In this document: positions 44,112-51,760 of the stretch, one piece after another | How positions within the stretch are numbered: the first letter of the stretch is position 1 | Layout: the number at the start of each line of letters is the position of its first letter | From: Novosphingobium sp. IK01 | GTDB lineage: Bacteria; Pseudomonadota; Alphaproteobacteria; Sphingomonadales; Sphingomonadaceae | Reading direction: 5' to 3' | DNA: 64,000 nucleotides | NCBI RefSeq assembly: GCF_033242265.1 | Contig: NZ_BTFW01000001.1 | Span: 2,159,001-2,223,000 of the forward strand | Notes under the pieces: model-generated | The model's input: the letters and a program-made list of their open reading frames with translations, nothing else | The model's database searches: none | What the model was told of the DNA's origin: nothing | Program-made: the position numbers and the translations under genes

Positions 44112-46337
44112 TCAATAGTTCACGCTGAAGCGCACGCCATAGCTCGCAGGGCGGGCGGGCTGGGCAATATCGGCGCTGGTGAAGAAGTTGCGCGTGAGAT
44201 CGTACTTCTCGTTGAAGATGTTGCGTCCCCACAGCGCCAGATTCCACTTGCCGTTGGCCGGGGCCAGCGACAGCTCGGCGTTGATCACCACATAGGCGCC
44301 GATGTCATAGGTCGTGCCCAGCCACGAAGGGTATTTCGAGCGATAGGTGAACGTCGTGGAAGGCGTCACCACGAATCCGGCCACGGGCCGGGCATAGCTG
44401 AGCCCGCCACCCCACGACCACTGGGGGAAGGGAATCGGGGTATGCGACTTGTCGGTATAGACCGGCCCGCCCGCCGCGCGCGAGGCGGCCACGTCGAGAT
44501 CCTGGAAATCGAGGTACTTGCCCTCGCTATAGCTCAGGTACTGGTTGATCGAGAGCCCCTTGACCGGGGTCAGCACGAGTTCCAGCTCGCCACCCAGCAC
44601 GCGCGACTTGTCGGCATTGGTGAAGCGCCCCACCGGCCCGTTGGCGCCCCAGACCGCCGAGAGCACCTGCTGGTCGTGATAGTCGTAATAATACGCCGAT
44701 CCATTGATCTGGACGATGGGCAAGGGGTTGGCCTTGAAGCCCACTTCGTAGGCGTTGATCTTTTCCGGCCTGAACGGCTGAATGCCCGAGGAATTGCCGG
44801 TGTTGTAGGTGGTGAACCCGCCCGACTTGGTGCCCCGGCTGGCCGAGGCATAGACCATGACATGGGCCGCGGGCGTATATTGCAGCGCGACCTTGCCGGT
44901 GAACGGGTCCATCGCGGTGTCCACCGATGTCGGCGGCAGTGCGGTGGCCCCGCCAAAGGCGCTGCCAAAGCCGTCGAGCGCGCGCGTTTCATGTTCGTAG
45001 CGCATGCCCAGGATCGCGCGCAGCCGGGGGGTGAACTGGTATTCGGCCTGGCCGAACACGCTGACCGACTCGACCGCCTGCGCATAATTGACCCGCGCAT
45101 AGGTGCCGTAAATATCGAGGAAGTCGGAAAAATAGCGCTCGTTCAGATGCTGCTGCGAATAATAGACCCCGGCCACCCAGGTCAGCGGGCCGGGCTTCGA
45201 ATTGCTCAGCCGCGCCTCCTGCGCGAAGACCTTGACCTTCGAACCGAAGAACGTGTCCGCCTCGATCGAGGCGCTGGCGTCCCAGTCGCCGAACTGTTCG
45301 CGGCTGAGCCAGTCGTAGGAGGTGATGCTGGTGAACGTGACCGGCCCGAAATCGTAGGCCACATTGGCCGAGACGCCCCAGGTGCGGTTGTTGACGCCCG
45401 GCTTGGAACGGGCGGTCAGGTCGGTATCGGCGATGAGCTGGGGCGAGACACCCCAGCCGGTCGCGTTGCGATCCGTATCGGCCGGAATCGTCGGCCCGGC
45501 CCCGCCCCGCGTGTGCAGCGGGTTGAGCAGGTAGAGCCCGGTCGCCTCGGACGTGTCGCGGCCATAGTGGAAATCGAGCAGCATCGTGAGCCCGCTGCCG
45601 CGCGGCGCCACCTGCAACAGCGCGCGTCCGCCCCAGCGGTTGGCATCGCCCAGCGAGGCGCCGGTATCGCGGTTATGCTGGAAGGCCCCGCCCTGCTGCG
45701 TCGCGCCCGCCAGACGCAGCGAGACCCCGTCGGCCAAGGGGCCCGAGACATAGGCCTCGCCATTGAAGGCGCCGAACCGGCCATATTCGAGGGTGCCGCC
45801 CGCATGGAGCGTATCGGTCGGGCGGTTGGTCACGAAATTGATCGCGCCGCCGGTCGTGTTGCGGCCATAGAGCGTGCCCTGCGGCCCGCGCAGCACCTCC
45901 ACCCGCGCCACGTCGAAGATCAGCCCCTGGGTCATGATCGGGACCGGGTAGGCCACTTCGTTCACATAGACGCCGACCGTGGGCGAATTGTTCGAGGCAT
46001 AGTCCTGAAAGCCCACGCCGCGCAGGCGGAACTGGGGCGCGCCGCCGCCAAAGGCCGGTTCGACCTGAAGCGCAGGGACAGCATCCTGCAACTGGTTGAC
46101 GTTGGTGATCCCGCGTTCGCGGAGCATGTCCTGCCCCACCACGCTCAGCGCGATGCCCACATCCTGCGCCGACTGTTCGCGGTGCTGGGCGGTGACGACG
46201 ATCGGGGAAGATGCCGGGGCTTCCGGCTCCGCCCCGGCATCGGCTGATGCCGTTTCGGCCATGGCCGGTGCGGCAAGACCCCACGCAATGGCACTCATGG
46301 CGGCACACATGGCCGTACCGTACGTCGAACGCATCAT
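44112..46337 (-). CDS. TonB-dependent outer-membrane receptor
   Basis: This 741-residue protein imports a substrate across the outer membrane using TonB energy. It has a signal peptide (AAMSAIAWGLAAPAMAE), a plug domain (about 40-165, with DVGIALSVVGQDMLRERGI and VEVLRGPQGTLYGRNTTGGAINFVT) and a 22-strand barrel ending in the terminal motif YGVRFSVNY. Start ATGs at 46337 and 46334 follow AGGAGGG. No Fur box is seen upstream. The divergent neighbour is an S58 peptidase with a symporter and amidase, so the cargo is more likely a peptide or amide than an iron chelate. The substrate remains unproven. Confidence 0.93.
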   Translation of the reverse strand: MMRSTYGTAMCAAMSAIAWGLAAPAMAETASADAGAEPEAPASSPIVVTAQHREQSAQDVGIALSVVGQDMLRERGITNVNQLQDAVPALQVEPAFGGGAPQFRLRGVGFQDYASNNSPTVGVYVNEVAYPVPIMTQGLIFDVARVEVLRGPQGTLYGRNTTGGAINFVTNRPTDTLHAGGTLEYGRFGAFNGEAYVSGPLADGVSLRLAGATQQGGAFQHNRDTGASLGDANRWGGRALLQVAPRGSGLTMLLDFHYGRDTSEATGLYLLNPLHTRGGAGPTIPADTDRNATGWGVSPQLIADTDLTARSKPGVNNRTWGVSANVAYDFGPVTFTSITSYDWLSREQFGDWDASASIEADTFFGSKVKVFAQEARLSNSKPGPLTWVAGVYYSQQHLNERYFSDFLDIYGTYARVNYAQAVESVSVFGQAEYQFTPRLRAILGMRYEHETRALDGFGSAFGGATALPPTSVDTAMDPFTGKVALQYTPAAHVMVYASASRGTKSGGFTTYNTGNSSGIQPFRPEKINAYEVGFKANPLPIVQINGSAYYYDYHDQQVLSAVWGANGPVGRFTNADKSRVLGGELELVLTPVKGLSINQYLSYSEGKYLDFQDLDVAASRAAGGPVYTDKSHTPIPFPQWSWGGGLSYARPVAGFVVTPSTTFTYRSKYPSWLGTTYDIGAYVVINAELSLAPANGKWNLALWGRNIFNEKYDLTRNFFTSADIAQPARPASYGVRFSVNY

Positions 46338-46548
46338 GGCTGGCTCCCTCCTGTTATCCCGCCTGCCCGATGATGCAGGCAGGGTGCCCCCCCTGTTCAG
46401 AGGATGCCCTTCGGGCGCTCTCCCTCTGGCCCGGATAGCCGGCATGGCGCCTCGCACCACCTTGCGACAACCGGGCCAGTTCGCTTATGCAGTTGTTCCG
46501 ATTATGAAAGTGCAGTTCGGGATTTTTGCACCGGTCTCTTTGCCCCTG

Positions 46549-46603
46549 TTGCAGGACCGGCCCCGATACCCAACAGAGTGTGGGCAAGCGCCCTGTCCTG
46601 CAA
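46549..46603. promoter_or_regulatory. Spaced inverted half-sites in the receptor/peptidase intergenic region
   Basis: The 497-base gap 46338-46834 separates the divergent receptor and peptidase genes. TTGCAGGAC at 46549 and its exact complement GTCCTGCAA at 46595 are spaced by 37 bases, compatible with a looped or two-site operator. Nothing else in the gap could be supported as a gene. Confidence 0.4.
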
Positions 46604-46834
46604 GACCGTTATTTCCCGCCCGGCATTTCGGGCCGCGCAATCGGAGGACGGTTCAGGGCCGCAGTTCCTGCCTCGACAGGGAATCATGATGATCAATATC
46701 CGCTATCGGATGCAACGGAAAAACAGGACAAAAAACAGGCTTGCGAGTGCGGGAGACACGATTTCTATTCGCAGCATGCCCGCCAGTCTCCAAACCTTGC
46801 GGCCTGCGACGGCCCAGACCCGAAGGAACCCACG

Positions 46835-47968
46835 ATGAACCGACGCGATCTCCTCAAGGGAAGCGGCATGCTGGGCGCCGCCGCGCTGGCGCCGGGCGCC
46901 GTGGCACAGGCCGCGCCCACCAAGACACCTCCCGCCGCAACCGCCATGCTGGGCCGCACCGGCCCGCGCAACCTGATCACCGACGTGGCCGGCATCACCG
47001 TGGGCTGCGCGCAGGACGCCGACGTGCGCACCGGCGCCACCGTGATCCTGGCCGACAAGCTCTCGACCGCGGCCATCGACGTGCGCGGTGGCGGCCCCGG
47101 CACGCGCGAAAGCGATGCGCTTGATGGCTACAACCTCGTCCATGCGGCCAATGCCATCGTGCTTTCGGGCGGCTCGTCGTGGGGGCTGGCCACAGCCGAT
47201 GGCGTGGCGGCGCATCTGGGCGCGCGCGGGATCGGTTATGGCGGCATGGCCCATGCGGGCGTGCCGGTCTCGCCCATCGTGCCCGCCGCGATCCTCTATG
47301 ACCTTGCCAATGGCGGCAACAAGAACTGGGGAGCCGAGCCCCCCTATCGCGAGCTGGGCGCGCAGGCGCTGGCCGCCGTCGGCGAGACATTCGCGCTGGG
47401 CACCTCGGGCGCGGGCTATGGCGCGATGGCGGGCGGGCTCAAGGGTGGGCTGGGCTCGGCCTCGTGCGTGGCGAGCGACGGGTTCACCGTGGGCGCCATC
47501 GTCGCGGTCAATTCGATGGGCTCGACCGTGCTGCCCGGGACGCGCCAGTTCTGGGCCGCCCCGTTCGAGATCGGCAACGAATTCGGTGGGCTCACCCCGC
47601 TGCCCATGCGCGTGGGGCCCGAGGAATGGGGGCATACCAAGGGCGCCGCCGCGCGCGAGAACACCACCATCGCCTGCATCGCCACCGACCTCGACCTGAC
47701 CGCCGACGAGATGAAGCGCGTGGCGATCATGGCGCAGGATGGCCTCGCGCGCGCGATCCGTCCGGTTCACACCCCGTTCGATGGCGATGTCGTCTTCGCC
47801 ATCTGCACGGGCCGCATCCAGCCCAGGGAACCGCGCACGATCGCCGTGCTCAAGGCCGGGGCGATCGCCGCCGACACGCTGGCCCGCGCCATTGCCCGCG
47901 GCGTCTTTGCCGCCACCCCGCCGCCCGGATCGAAGGTGCTGACCTGGTCGATGCTGCCTGCCCGGTGA
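46835..47968 (+). CDS. S58 (P1) family peptidase, DmpA/BapA-like aminopeptidase with Tat signal
   Basis: DmpA/BapA-type enzymes are N-terminal-nucleophile hydrolases that self-cleave into two chains and release N-terminal residues from alpha- or beta-peptides and amides. This 377-residue protein starts MNRRDLLKGSGMLGAAALAPG, a twin-arginine signal, so it is probably exported folded to the periplasm. Family segments are ITDVAGITVGCAQD, VRGGGPGTRESDAL, LSGGSSWGLATADGV and GAMAGGLKGGLGSAS. The predicted self-cleavage is between Asn276 and Thr277 in ARENTTIACIATD, where DmpA has Gly-Ser, so Thr is the nucleophile. It heads a four-gene run with a symporter and an amidase. Confidence 0.93.
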   Translation: MNRRDLLKGSGMLGAAALAPGAVAQAAPTKTPPAATAMLGRTGPRNLITDVAGITVGCAQDADVRTGATVILADKLSTAAIDVRGGGPGTRESDALDGYNLVHAANAIVLSGGSSWGLATADGVAAHLGARGIGYGGMAHAGVPVSPIVPAAILYDLANGGNKNWGAEPPYRELGAQALAAVGETFALGTSGAGYGAMAGGLKGGLGSASCVASDGFTVGAIVAVNSMGSTVLPGTRQFWAAPFEIGNEFGGLTPLPMRVGPEEWGHTKGAAARENTTIACIATDLDLTADEMKRVAIMAQDGLARAIRPVHTPFDGDVVFAICTGRIQPREPRTIAVLKAGAIAADTLARAIARGVFAATPPPGSKVLTWSMLPAR

Positions 47969-48008
47969 GGCCCTTTCTGGTGAGGCCCTCTCAGGTGAAG
48001 GACCGCCC

Positions 48009-48260
48009 ATGACCCATCGCCATCGACAGCGCGGCGCCACGACAGCCGCGCCGCCGCGCTGGGCCATTGCGCTGGGGCTGCTGCTGCCGCTCGCGCTGGT
48101 GCTGCTCTCGGCGCTCGCCGTGCCCGCCGATGCCGGTCGCTGGCTGGGCATCGACTTGCGCATCTGGTGCCTTTTTGCCTGCGCCCCGGTCACCAGCGTC
48201 TGTCTGGCGCTGTGCTATCGCTTCACCGCCGGGCCCCCTGCGGAAGACGACCGGGCATGA
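48009..48260 (+). CDS. Small two-helix membrane protein before the symporter gene
   Basis: This 83-residue protein has a basic N-terminus and two predicted membrane helices (about 19-40, WAIALGLLLPLALVLLSALA, and about 53-72). Small two-helix proteins of the DUF3311 or DUF485 kind often precede sodium:solute symporters and may help their assembly. The similarity here is one of size, topology and context rather than clear sequence. It has AAGGA seven bases before the ATG, and its stop overlaps the symporter start (ATGA). Confidence 0.7.
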   Translation: MTHRHRQRGATTAAPPRWAIALGLLLPLALVLLSALAVPADAGRWLGIDLRIWCLFACAPVTSVCLALCYRFTAGPPAEDDRA

Positions 48261-49666
48261 TCGCCAGTTTTGTCCTGATCATGGCGCTCTCGCTCGGGAT
48301 TGCGCTGTGGGCGCGGCGCGGGCACAAGCGGGGGCAAGGTCAGGGCCACGACGACGCCCGCGCGTTCTTCGTGGCCGGCGGCCAGTTCGGCGCGCTGCTG
48401 TTCTTCTTCCTCTCGGTGGGCGAGACGTATTCGATTGCCACGATGCTGGGTTTTCCCGGCGGAGTCTATGCCGGGGGGGACAGCTTCGTGCTGTGGTTCT
48501 TCGGCTATATCCTGCTGGCCGGGCCCTGCCTCTATTTTCTGGGCCCGTGGATCTGGCGGGCGGGCAGCCTCTATGGATCGGCGACGATCCCCGATTTCTT
48601 CCGCGCCCATTTCGACAGCCGGGCGCTCGAAATCCTGATCGCGGCGGGGGCCATCGTGCTGCTCGTGCCGATCGGGACGATGCAGTTCCTCGGCATGAAA
48701 CTGGTGCTGGCCGCCCTCGTGCCACAGGCGCCGGTCATGGCCCTGCTGGGCGCGGCGGGGCTGCTCACGTTTGCCTATGTGGCGCTGGCGGGCCTGCGCG
48801 CCTCGGCCTTTGTGGCCGTGCTCAAGGACGTGCTGATGCTCGGCTCGATCCTGCTGGTGGGCGCGCTGGCGATTACCCACTGGAACGGGGCTGGCGCAGG
48901 GACAGCAGCGGCAGCCCCCTCGCTCCCCCCGGCAGCGGGCGGGGGCCTGCCTTTCGCGATCAGCACGATCCTGTTGCAAGCGGTGGGCTTTGCGATGATC
49001 CCGCAGAACTGGGCCTTCATCTTCTCGGCCCGCGATCCCCGCGCGATCCAGCGCGCGCAAGTGATCGCCCCACTCTACATGGTCATGTTCCCGCTGCTGA
49101 TGGTGGTCGCCTATTTCGCGCAGCGCCATGGCATTGCCGTGCCCCGGCCCGATTTCGTGTTTCTGGCCGTCGCCATGGCGCTGCTGCCGGGCTGGGTGGT
49201 CGGGCTGGTCATGGCGGCGGTGGTGCTTTCGGGGCTGATGATCCTGTCGAGCGTGTGCCTCGCGATTGCGCCGCTGTTCACGCGCAACCTCGTGCCCGGC
49301 CTCGGCAATCGCGCGCAACAGGGCTGGTCGAAGGTGGTCATCGCGGTGTTCCTCGCGCTCTCGATCCTCGCCACGCAGGCCAAAGTACCGCTGATCGCCA
49401 CGCTCAACAACGTGTTCTACTTCGGCATCGTCCAGACCCTGCCGGGCTTTGTCGGGGCGCTGCTGGTCGCCCGGATGCCCGCGCGCGGGGTTCTGGCCGG
49501 GATCGGGGCGGCGGGGGTGTTCATCGTCTGGGTCCGTCTGGCGGGCATCTCGCCGGGCGGGATCAACCCCGGCCTGATCGGCCTTGCGATCAATGCGCTG
49601 GTAGTCGCCGCCTGCACGGCGCTCTGGCCGCGCGAGGGAGGCCGCGCGATCATCGGGCGGGACTGA
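48257..49666 (+). CDS. Sodium:solute symporter family transporter
   Basis: This 469-residue inner-membrane protein has about 12-13 predicted helices. It shows SSS-family features: the N-terminal ARAFFVAGGQFGALLFFFLSVGETYS, the GSATIPDFFRAHF segment, a LRASAFVAVLKDVLM segment and the mid-protein NWAFIFSARDPRAIQRAQ. Members import amino acids, sugars, organic acids or vitamins with sodium. It overlaps the small two-helix protein by four bases and is followed 42 bases later by an amidase, so it probably carries a product of the periplasmic peptidase or an amide to the cytoplasm. Confidence 0.9.
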   Translation: MIASFVLIMALSLGIALWARRGHKRGQGQGHDDARAFFVAGGQFGALLFFFLSVGETYSIATMLGFPGGVYAGGDSFVLWFFGYILLAGPCLYFLGPWIWRAGSLYGSATIPDFFRAHFDSRALEILIAAGAIVLLVPIGTMQFLGMKLVLAALVPQAPVMALLGAAGLLTFAYVALAGLRASAFVAVLKDVLMLGSILLVGALAITHWNGAGAGTAAAAPSLPPAAGGGLPFAISTILLQAVGFAMIPQNWAFIFSARDPRAIQRAQVIAPLYMVMFPLLMVVAYFAQRHGIAVPRPDFVFLAVAMALLPGWVVGLVMAAVVLSGLMILSSVCLAIAPLFTRNLVPGLGNRAQQGWSKVVIAVFLALSILATQAKVPLIATLNNVFYFGIVQTLPGFVGALLVARMPARGVLAGIGAAGVFIVWVRLAGISPGGINPGLIGLAINALVVAACTALWPREGGRAIIGRD

Positions 49667-49708
49667 CGCCCTCTTTATCTGACACCCTGCAACCGGATAG
49701 GAGCACGC

Positions 49709-51115
49709 ATGCGCGAAGAACTGGCCGATCTGAGTGGAGCGGAACTGTCCCGCGCCTTTGCGACGCGGGCGCTGTCTCCGGTCGAGGTGATGGCCGATGT
49801 GCTGGCACGGGTGGAGCGGCTCGAGCCCGTGCTCTGCGCGACATGGGCGCTCGATGCGCAAGCCGCGATGGAAGGCGCGCGCGCCAGCGAACGCCGCTGG
49901 CACGCAGGCACCGCGCGCAGCCCGCTCGACGGCATTCCCGTCACCCTCAAGGAACTGATCGCCACCCAGGGCTGCCCCAAGCCGGTCGGCACCGCCGCCA
50001 CCGAACTCGTCCCTCAGACCGCCGATGCCCCGCCCGCCGCGCGCCTGAACGAGGCCGGTTGCATCGCCTTTGCCAAGACCACCGTGCCCGATTACGGCAT
50101 GTTGTCCTCGGGCCTGTCGAGCTTCCACAAGCTGGCTCGCAATCCGTGGGACATCACGCGCAATCCGGGCGGATCGAGCGCCGGGGCGGGCGCGGCGGCG
50201 GCGGCAGGCTATGGCCCGTTCCACGTTGGCACCGATATCGGCGGCTCGGTGCGCCTGCCCGCCGGGTGGTGCGGCATCTTTGCCCTCAAGCCGAGCAACG
50301 GGCGCATCCCCATCGACCCGCCCTATATCGGCCGCGTTGCCGGGCCGATGACCCGCACGGTCAGCGATGCAGCGATGATGATGACCGCGCTCAGCGGCCC
50401 CGACCCGCGCGATTTCATGGACCTGCCGCCCGAAATGCTGCCGTGGATGGACCTCGATGCCGACGTGAAGGGCCTGCGCATCGGCCTCATGCTCGATGCG
50501 GGCTGCGGCGCGGCGCCCGAACCCGACGTGGTTGCCGCCATCGAGGAGGCCGCGCGCCTATTCGAGGCGGGCGGCGCCCATGTCGAGCCGGTCGCCCCGT
50601 TCATGACCCCGGCCATGCTCGACGGGCTCGACCGGTTCTGGCGCACGCGCTTCTGGGCCGAAACGAAAGACCTGCCCCCCGAACGCTATGAAAAGATCCT
50701 GCCCTATATCCGCGCCTGGGTCGAACCGGCGGCGGGGTACACCGGGCTGGACGTCTACACCGGCTTTGACCAGATCATGCAGATGCGCGAACGCGGGCGG
50801 GCCTATCAGTCCTGTGACCTGCTGCTCTCGCCGGTCGCGCCGATGCCCGCCTTTGCCGCCGACCTGCCCTCGCCGACCAACGACCCGGCGCGCCCGTTCG
50901 ACCATATCGGCTTTACCGTGCCCTTCAACATGACCGAACAGCCCGCCAGTTCGATCAACTGCGGCTATAGCGCCGAAGGGCTGCCGATCGGGCTCCAGAT
51001 CGTGGGCCGCCGCTTTGCCGACATGGACGTGCTGCGCGCCTCGCGCTGGTACGAACAGGCGCGCGGGCCCCAGCGGCCCTGGCCGCTCAGCCTCGAACAG
51101 GGGGTTCAGGGCTGA
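49709..51115 (+). CDS. Amidase-signature hydrolase
   Basis: This 468-residue cytosolic enzyme has the Ser-cisSer-Lys triad of the amidase signature family. The Lys is Lys81 in GIPVTLKELIA, the cis-Ser is Ser156 in NPGGSSAGAGAAAA, and the nucleophile is Ser180 in GTDIGGSVRLPA. The usual GGSSGG is GGSSAG here. It hydrolyses amides to acid and ammonia; the C-terminal half that sets specificity contains TVPFNMTEQPASSI, common in amidases acting on small substrates. It closes the peptidase-symporter run and ends inside a palindromic repeat. Confidence 0.92.
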   Translation: MREELADLSGAELSRAFATRALSPVEVMADVLARVERLEPVLCATWALDAQAAMEGARASERRWHAGTARSPLDGIPVTLKELIATQGCPKPVGTAATELVPQTADAPPAARLNEAGCIAFAKTTVPDYGMLSSGLSSFHKLARNPWDITRNPGGSSAGAGAAAAAGYGPFHVGTDIGGSVRLPAGWCGIFALKPSNGRIPIDPPYIGRVAGPMTRTVSDAAMMMTALSGPDPRDFMDLPPEMLPWMDLDADVKGLRIGLMLDAGCGAAPEPDVVAAIEEAARLFEAGGAHVEPVAPFMTPAMLDGLDRFWRTRFWAETKDLPPERYEKILPYIRAWVEPAAGYTGLDVYTGFDQIMQMRERGRAYQSCDLLLSPVAPMPAFAADLPSPTNDPARPFDHIGFTVPFNMTEQPASSINCGYSAEGLPIGLQIVGRRFADMDVLRASRWYEQARGPQRPWPLSLEQGVQG

Positions 51116-51250
51116 TCCGAAACTATAGTTTCGGATCGTCCGGCACCGGCCCACTCCCCCACCCGACCTCTCATAGGGTACTATTGTTGGGAGGTCGGGT
51201 GGGGGAGTGGGCTGGTGCCGGACCGAAATTCGCCCCTTCGGCGAATTTCG
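51114..51250. repeat. Composite palindromic repeat, copy 2
   Basis: Hairpin A (GATCCGAAACTA/TAGTTTCGGATC, 51114-51137) overlaps the amidase stop. A long dyad follows: left arm about 51140-51171 and right arm about 51188-51221 (GGGAGGTCGGGTGGGGGAG). The loop between them contains ATAGGGTACTAT. Hairpin C (CGAAATTCGCC/GGCGAATTTCG, 51224-51250) ends it. The same three modules occur at 35036-35214. Here the left arm is uninterrupted, so this is the intact form. No gene lies between 51116 and 51286. Confidence 0.85.
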
Positions 51251-51286
51251 AATCAGACTCTCAGATCGAATCGTAAAAGGCCTGTT

Positions 51287-51760
51287 TCAGTCCGGCACAG
51301 GCCCGCAGGCCCCGCAGCGCCCGCGAATCTCGACGACCGGGCGCACGTCGGCAAAGCCCGCGTCGCGGGCCGCCTCGCGCAGGAGGCCGGTCAGCCTGTC
51401 GTCGTCGAGGTGGGTCGCCTGCCCGCAGGCGTCGCAGATCAGGAAGATGCAGTCGTGGCGGCAGCCCGGATGGGGGTTGGCCACATAGGCATTCGCGCTT
51501 TCCACCCGGCGCGCCAGATTGGTGCGCACGAAAAGGTCGAGGATGCGATAGACGCTGTTGGGCGCCACGCGCTTGCCGCGCGCCTGCCCGACATGTTCGG
51601 CGATGTCGTAGGCCGAGGCCGGGCGCGGCTGCGCGACGAGCGCGGCGAAGACATCGGCGCGCATCCCGGTCCATTGTTCGCCGGCAACGGTCAGCGCCTC
51701 GCGCGCTGCATTGACCAGCCCTTCGCCGGCATAGTCGTGATGATGATGGTGCCCGCCCAT
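51287..51760 (-). CDS. Fur-family transcriptional regulator (Zur-like)
   Basis: This 157-residue metalloregulator has a winged-helix domain (about 20-95) with ASAYDIAEHVGQARGKRVAPNSVYRILDLF and a dimerisation domain with two CxxC pairs, ICDACGQ and GRCGACG, that bind structural zinc. The HDCIFLICD segment is typical of Zur rather than Fur. The N-terminus is MGGHHHHHDYAGEG, a natural five-His run that could add a metal site. No zinc-uptake genes are next to it in this window. It is convergent with the amidase across the composite repeat. Confidence 0.88.
   Translation of the reverse strand: MGGHHHHHDYAGEGLVNAAREALTVAGEQWTGMRADVFAALVAQPRPASAYDIAEHVGQARGKRVAPNSVYRILDLFVRTNLARRVESANAYVANPHPGCRHDCIFLICDACGQATHLDDDRLTGLLREAARDAGFADVRPVVEIRGRCGACGPVPD

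Follow-up and report, generated by a model that had tools for sequence, protein, structure and literature searches.

We analysed a five-gene locus within a 64,000-nucleotide stretch of Novosphingobium sp. IK01 (hereafter the window). A TonB-dependent outer-membrane receptor diverges from a run of four genes for an S58-family hydrolase with a twin-arginine translocation (Tat) signal, a two-helix small protein, a sodium:solute symporter and an amidase, i.e., all five genes are present and placed as claimed in a preliminary description of this DNA (Table 1). Receptor, Tat-type S58 enzyme, small protein/symporter pair and amidase look like a single uptake-and-hydrolysis unit, and we consider it fairly likely that the locus serves the uptake and breakdown of a small amide containing beta-alanine or some other short, related beta-amino acid. 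Pantetheine/pantothenate as the particular substrate (that is, pantetheine or an S-substituted pantetheine) is put forward tentatively. Within the plus-strand run, 40 bp separate the S58 and small-protein genes and 42 bp those of symporter and amidase, while small protein and symporter overlap by 4 bp (ATGA), as described before.

Table 1. Features of the locus, with positions in the window.
Feature	Position	Strand	Basis and remarks
TonB-dependent outer-membrane receptor, 741 aa	44112..46337	-	Pfam Plug and barrel; putative substrate entry
Divergent intergenic region, 497 bp	46338..46834	.	Position; presumed site of both promoters
Tat-type S58 (ThnT-like) amide hydrolase	46835..47968	+	PF03576, TAT_signal; predicted autoproteolysis before Thr277 (NTT)
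DUF3311-like two-helix protein, 83 aa, symporter partner	48009..48260	+	PF11755 20.1 bits, under cut-off
Sodium:solute symporter, 469 aa	48257..49666	+	PF00474 48 bits
Amidase-signature enzyme, PRK07042 equivalog, candidate pantothenase or beta-alanine-amide amidase	49709..51115	+	PF01425 268 bits, NF005450

Conservation of gene order in relatives, which the preliminary description had proposed for comparison, was found for the S58 and symporter genes. Among 195 genomes of the genus, 8 carry an orthologue of the S58 gene (at least 72% identity), as do 4 of 298 genomes of a family sample. Symporter orthologues (at least 65%) are found in the same 8 and the same 4 genomes, at most 350 bp from the S58 gene in every genome with both, so that the linkage exceeds chance. 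For reference, any S58 protein at E 1e-20 is found in 15/195 genus genomes and some S58 protein in 51/298 genomes of the family sample, while a second tier of symporters in the genus (13 places, 29-30% identity) is not orthologous. The window genome itself (3.77 Mb) has one S58 gene only. The closest named record to its product stems from a metagenome-assembled genome (MAG) labelled Novosphingobium capsulatum (99% identity); that of N. capsulatum NBRC 12533 reaches 80% identity.

We compared the neighbourhoods of 12 distinct symporter-linked loci with an intact S58 start, i.e., the window and the loci L003-L008, L136-L138, L142 and L194. A receptor relative (44-71% identity) lies within 9 kb in 9/12; the amidase is present in 6, the aminotransferase AptA in 5, the dehydrogenase MmsA in 4 and a methylamine-dehydrogenase-like heavy chain in 3. 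The S58 domains of L136 and L137 are identical in the tree and L138 is close, which leaves fewer than 12 independent lineages. Furthermore, the search profiles were built from members of these same loci, and at least one gene, that of the L194 aminotransferase (recovered by profile), escaped the simple script used to call open reading frames. The full set is also present, in a different order, in a genome of a different alphaproteobacterial family, where L194 encodes a LysR-type regulator, receptor (44% identity), amidase (57%), S58 protein with Tat motif (65%) and symporter (46%). That the genes are neighbours without joint function, with receptor and amidase having joined independently, is improbable given this recurrence and the joint presence of S58 and symporter orthologues in all 8 genus and all 4 family genomes having either. 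In its favour, the amidase is often absent, and L003, L005 and L006 hold S58 gene, small frame and symporter alone, next to the TrcR and CBS genes that also adjoin the window's locus. The claim of one uptake-and-hydrolysis unit is supported by the conserved S58-symporter core and the recurring whole set. The amidase is an accessory member of the locus.

Regarding the receptor, the window genome contains 45 members of this TonB-dependent family. One receptor beside one operon therefore says little, and it is recurrence in relatives that counts: besides L194, the S58/symporter pair is accompanied by receptors of 64-71% identity in L004, L007, L008, L136-L138 and L142. The window's receptor scores 52 bits for the Plug and 112 bits for the barrel domain, remains under the cut-off of all 25 NCBIfam models shown, and does not pass the TonB siderophore receptor model TIGR01783 (118.1 bits, cut-off 223.5). 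Its listed GTG start at 46460 was rejected as too early; we placed the start at 46337 since the signal-peptide-like MMRSTYGTAMCAAMSAIAWGLAAPAMAE begins there.

The S58 protein has the S58 fold and belongs to PF03576 (180 bits). Its nearest solved relative, both by sequence and by fold, is ThnT, the pantetheine hydrolase of thienamycin biosynthesis (PDB 3tm1, 3s3u). In the profile search, ThnT reached 270 bits and DmpA/BapA far less (25 and 41 bits, 25 being BapA's value); BapA was absent from the single-sequence search at E up to 10. The protein carries the motif N276-T277-T, with T277 invariant across 18 sequences, and a Thr nucleophile is common to it and ThnT. We thus rejected the DmpA/BapA-like identity first proposed: BapA and DmpA (PDB 3n2w, 1b65) are 23-25% identical to it, and the nucleophile of BapA is a Ser (S250, PDB title of 3n5i). 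The enzyme is ThnT-like with a Thr nucleophile, and its hydrolysis of pantetheine is putative. In contrast to ThnT, it has a Tat signal and sits in an uptake/catabolic locus instead of an antibiotic cluster.

The S58 assignment bears on an explanation close to the preliminary description, namely peptide scavenging, where the S58 enzyme would be a general periplasmic aminopeptidase for beta-alanyl or D/L dipeptides (carnosine-like), the symporter would import the amino acid and the amidase would deamidate amino-acid amides. AptA would take the resulting beta-alanine, the best model of the symporter is the monocarboxylate transporter MctP, and oligopeptide-type ATP-binding cassette (ABC) importers lie near 21/87 S58 loci (at most 8 kb from the S58 gene) and 9/20 amidase loci. 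On the other hand, BapA and DmpA, for which PMC9235088 gives carnosine and beta-peptides as substrates, are the distant, in BapA's case Ser250-dependent, enzymes discussed above, and scavenging provides no special role for the amine dehydrogenase or the aldehyde dehydrogenase (ALDH) and short-chain dehydrogenase/reductase (SDR) pair found beside relatives' genes. We regard it as unlikely.

The twin-arginine part of the earlier S58 claim was borne out, i.e., the N-terminus MNRRDLLKGSGMLGAAALAPGAVAQA scores 25.4 bits with the TAT_signal model (cut-off 22.7). A Tat motif is seen in 12/12 distinct symporter-linked S58 proteins with intact starts compared to 5/76 others, as called by a motif-and-hydrophobicity script, not a trained predictor. 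Here, we used loci of at least 5000 bases, left out the truncated L002, removed six duplicate loci and added the window manually. We also considered the strict rule that Tat export goes with a symporter and a cytoplasmic enzyme with an ABC importer. Its first half holds (12/12), but a Tat motif is present in 4/21 importer-linked S58 loci and the rule was discarded. In Brevundimonas (L013, L015, L018), a Tat-type S58 gene lies together with genes for an oligopeptide-type ABC importer and for a receptor from the same family as the window's (39-40%). In a tree of 89 S58 proteins, rooted at midpoint only, the 12 sphingomonad symporter-linked rows form a single group (100/100) that includes L002 and excludes L194. 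The latter pairs with an Asaia protein (99/83) within a 20-row group (99/89) that contains the Tat-motif members from Brevundimonas, Woeseiaceae and L012 and every Tat-called row; its rows without a call are L002 (truncated), L046 and L009, whose RR motif at the start the script did not count. Tat export of S58 proteins may accordingly have a single origin, and the importer type (ABC or symporter) may have been swapped during their evolution.

The small protein scores 20.1 bits with PF11755 (DUF3311), under the gathering score of 30. Similar stretches precede the symporter in 10/10 Novosphingobium/Croceibacterium loci searched, spanning only 18-26 aa in L003, L005 and L006. In L194, no match to the window's small protein was found; a small frame there ends in the same ATGA overlap with the symporter. 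The symporter shares the sodium:solute symporter family with MctP and PanF and stays under both curated cut-offs (MctP, NF046076: 100.6 vs. 625 bits; PanF, TIGR02119: 35.7 vs. 328 bits); a search for solved sequence relatives at E 0.001 found none. Annotation places DUF3311-symporter pairs likewise on plasmids of Burkholderia and Caballeronia (one each), with DUF3311 in the position of the window's small protein; L203 (8587-12953) and L204 (8630-12871) show the run DUF3311, symporter (42% to the window's), amidohydrolase and GTP-binding protein. These neighbourhoods, i.e., amidohydrolase and GTP-binding protein, yielded no substrate clue. An amidohydrolase/GTP-binding protein pair also lies about 4 kb from an S58 gene in L222.

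The amidase reaches 745.9 bits with NF005450 (PRK07042 equivalog, cut-off 458), and its K81, S156 and S180, which match the Lys/cis-Ser/Ser catalytic triad of amidase-signature enzymes, are invariant among 6 sequences. As it has no evident signal peptide, the enzyme is presumably cytoplasmic. For a class-level sample of amidase loci, we used 20 of 24 non-own places (leaving out G646, G518, G616 and G662). An oligopeptide-type ABC importer is part of the fetched stretch in the mentioned 9 of these 20, and an S58 gene in 2 (L183, L194). In similarity to it, NylA comes only after GatA, aryl acylamidase and urethanases. This ranking speaks against the use of nylon-type omega-amino-acid oligomers, for which the S58 protein would be a NylC/Nyl50-like oligomer hydrolase and the amidase NylA-like. 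Similarity here is also clearly below that to ThnT, and MmsA, a methylmalonate-semialdehyde dehydrogenase (MMSDH), acts on a three-carbon semialdehyde, which makes the nylon explanation highly improbable.

The genes beside relatives' loci point to the fate of the product. In L136 and L138, one strand encodes receptor, AptA and a PuuR-like regulator, and the other an amine-dehydrogenase heavy chain, MauE, a redoxin-like protein (under its model cut-off), light chain, cytochrome c, S58 protein, small protein, symporter, MmsA and amidase. The same map is repeated in L137, judged by gene position and our own profiles. That is, a tryptophan tryptophylquinone (TTQ) amine-dehydrogenase set (heavy chain to cytochrome c; L136 5784-9329, Novosphingobium) is joined to the S58 operon. 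AptA and MmsA of L136 score 661 (equivalog cut-off 500) and 656 (MMSDH cut-off 448), respectively. From the model name, we take AptA to be the Caulobacter omega-transaminase; the aminotransferase was called by our own profile in L004 and by Pfam plus 56% identity to the L136 AptA in L194. The Caulobacter omega-transaminase is described as highly active on beta-alanine in PMC3281772. Given AptA and MmsA beside relatives' loci, a beta-amino-acid substrate is likely. Thus, the unusual beta-type substrate proposed earlier is retained for this reason, while the original argument from DmpA/BapA fails. The window genome has one good homologue each of AptA (62%) and MmsA (71%), both outside the locus.

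In L194, amidase, S58 gene and symporter are further accompanied by genes for a dihydropyrimidinase (597.6 bits with TIGR02033, cut-off 393) and the AptA-like aminotransferase. This would suit the use of reductive-pyrimidine products or N-carbamoyl-beta-alanine, with a beta-ureidopropionase-like amidase and a side role for the S58 protein. Some amidase-signature enzymes cut ureides (101 bits to biuret hydrolase), and on two Pseudosulfitobacter plasmids (L212, L213) an amidase homologue is part of a gene cluster for purine/allantoin catabolism, so some homologues may act on ureide-type substrates. Still, a dihydropyrimidinase is found in 1/12 symporter loci, and Tat-type S58 enzyme and receptor are left unexplained, such that we deem pyrimidine use very improbable.

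A second recurring neighbour is the ALDH-SDR pair, which shows between lineages 54-74% (ALDH) and 47-75% (SDR) identity. It accompanies importer and amidase in Ensifer/Sinorhizobium (L208 and L214-L217, one lineage) and L190, and importer and S58 gene in Qingshengfaniella (L219) and Tateyamaria (L220); the plasmid regions L214-L218 were read by tblastn. Since the pair is found beside both, S58 protein and amidase belong to the same catabolic module. It fits pantoate degradation, yet is non-specific. In L012 (7686-10954, a Caulobacteraceae MAG), an ALDH-SDR pair diverges from a Tat-type S58 gene of the window's group.

For a beta-alanine-containing amide, we propose the following route. The receptor would carry the compound across the outer membrane. 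The exported ThnT-like S58 enzyme would cleave itself, exposing Thr277, and cut the beta-aminoacyl amide bond in the periplasm. The acid half would be taken up by the small protein/symporter pair and the remaining amide split by the amidase in the cytoplasm, releasing beta-alanine, which AptA and MmsA (encoded elsewhere in the window genome and beside the locus in relatives) would convert to an acyl-CoA (coenzyme A thioester). While gene content, order, families, Tat motif and conservation are direct observations, we infer the substrate, the reaction order, export and the specificities of receptor and symporter. A compound matching these parts would contain a beta-alanyl amide with an amine to one side and, judging from some relatives, also a primary alcohol. 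Pantetheine combines these features in its cysteamine, beta-alanine and pantoate moieties. In the pantetheine case, the S58 enzyme would yield cysteamine and pantothenate, the symporter would import pantothenate and the amidase would be a pantothenase, i.e., catalyse the same reaction as the Pseudomonas fluorescens enzyme known by activity only. As a whole, a dedicated pathway for pantetheine or other CoA-derived vitamin B5 compounds, consisting of a receptor for pantetheine-like ligands, a ThnT-type pantetheinase in the periplasm, a sodium-driven importer from a new subfamily that takes up pantothenate, the first pantothenase sequence, beta-alanine passed to AptA/MmsA and, in some strains, the amine passed to the TTQ amine dehydrogenase, seems rather doubtful to us.

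Several observations weigh against these proposals. A genome-wide search of 8 relatives at E 1e-60 failed to find the amidase in 5, AptA and MmsA lie outside the window, and a close SDR is wanting in the window genome (37-38% only). The strains with the three amine-dehydrogenase loci are close relatives of one another, peptides would be suited equally well by the peptide-type ABC importers that lie near many homologues, and the symporter scores higher with MctP than with PanF, reaching neither cut-off. The L194 dihydropyrimidinase is left unexplained by pantetheine, though it keeps the beta-alanine theme. With regard to pan genes, panC and panB lie 1-2 kb from the amidase in L211, but this is just 1/33 amidase loci searched; together with the S58 gene about 4.6 kb from panB in R. 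litoralis, such proximity could be coincidence. The leuB gene beside the Ensifer amidase was tried as a dimethylmalate dehydrogenase and rejected, as it shares 92.4% identity with leuB of S. meliloti and is probably an ordinary leuB. Finally, the pantothenate-cleaving shunt was, according to PMC10393543, found first in E. coli and may use an enzyme different from the amidase.

A scan for promoters and terminators gave no sigma-70-like consensus match in the divergent gap, with 2 promoter-like matches compared to 1.0 expected. The canonical 19-bp Fur box has no match at up to 3 mismatches in the window; this is a weak test, since alphaproteobacterial Fur-type operators differ from the canonical box. 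Directly after the locus, a convergent gene encodes a Fur-family (Zur-like) regulator (51287-51760; PF01475, 32.9 bits). Between the two (51114-51290), downstream of the amidase, lies a very strong hairpin with 36-nt arms (51138-51173/51188-51223, 94% complementary). Two smaller palindromes flank it, and the z-score for RNA folding is -14.6. Its 18-base core occurs in 1/225 loci, namely the window's own (L130). In L141, a record of the same species, about 150 bp are missing at this position, with a single copy retained of the TCCGGCAC that flanks this segment in the window, i.e., the segment is either a small insertion in the window or a loss in the L141 assembly.

TonB-linked catabolic loci resembling polysaccharide utilization loci combine an outer-membrane receptor, an exported hydrolase, an inner-membrane importer and a cytoplasmic enzyme. 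The window's locus has the same four-part architecture and differs by its amide chemistry and sodium symporter; moreover, no evident regulator of its own lies beside this copy, save the convergent Fur-family gene. In agreement with the preliminary description, none of the open-licence papers listed by our searches describes this gene set and layout in its title or abstract opening.

According to PMC10393543 (2023), E. coli and leaf isolates of alphaproteobacteria and actinobacteria use the beta-alanine part of supplied pantothenate for CoA synthesis, so that pantothenate-cleaving enzymes must exist. The same source calls the protein identity of pantothenase (EC 3.5.1.22) "currently unknown", i.e., an orphan activity with no reference sequence. 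The amidase may be this long-sought pantothenate-splitting enzyme. The locus and its relatives offer a short list of candidates, with one amidase family for pantothenate and, for pantetheine, one family of Tat-type S58 enzymes. Should some other beta-alanine amide be the substrate, the locus would still be a TonB-linked amide utilisation system, a kind of which the listed open-licence papers show no description. If pantetheine is the substrate, these bacteria would use a vitamin precursor as food, via a dedicated outer-membrane port.

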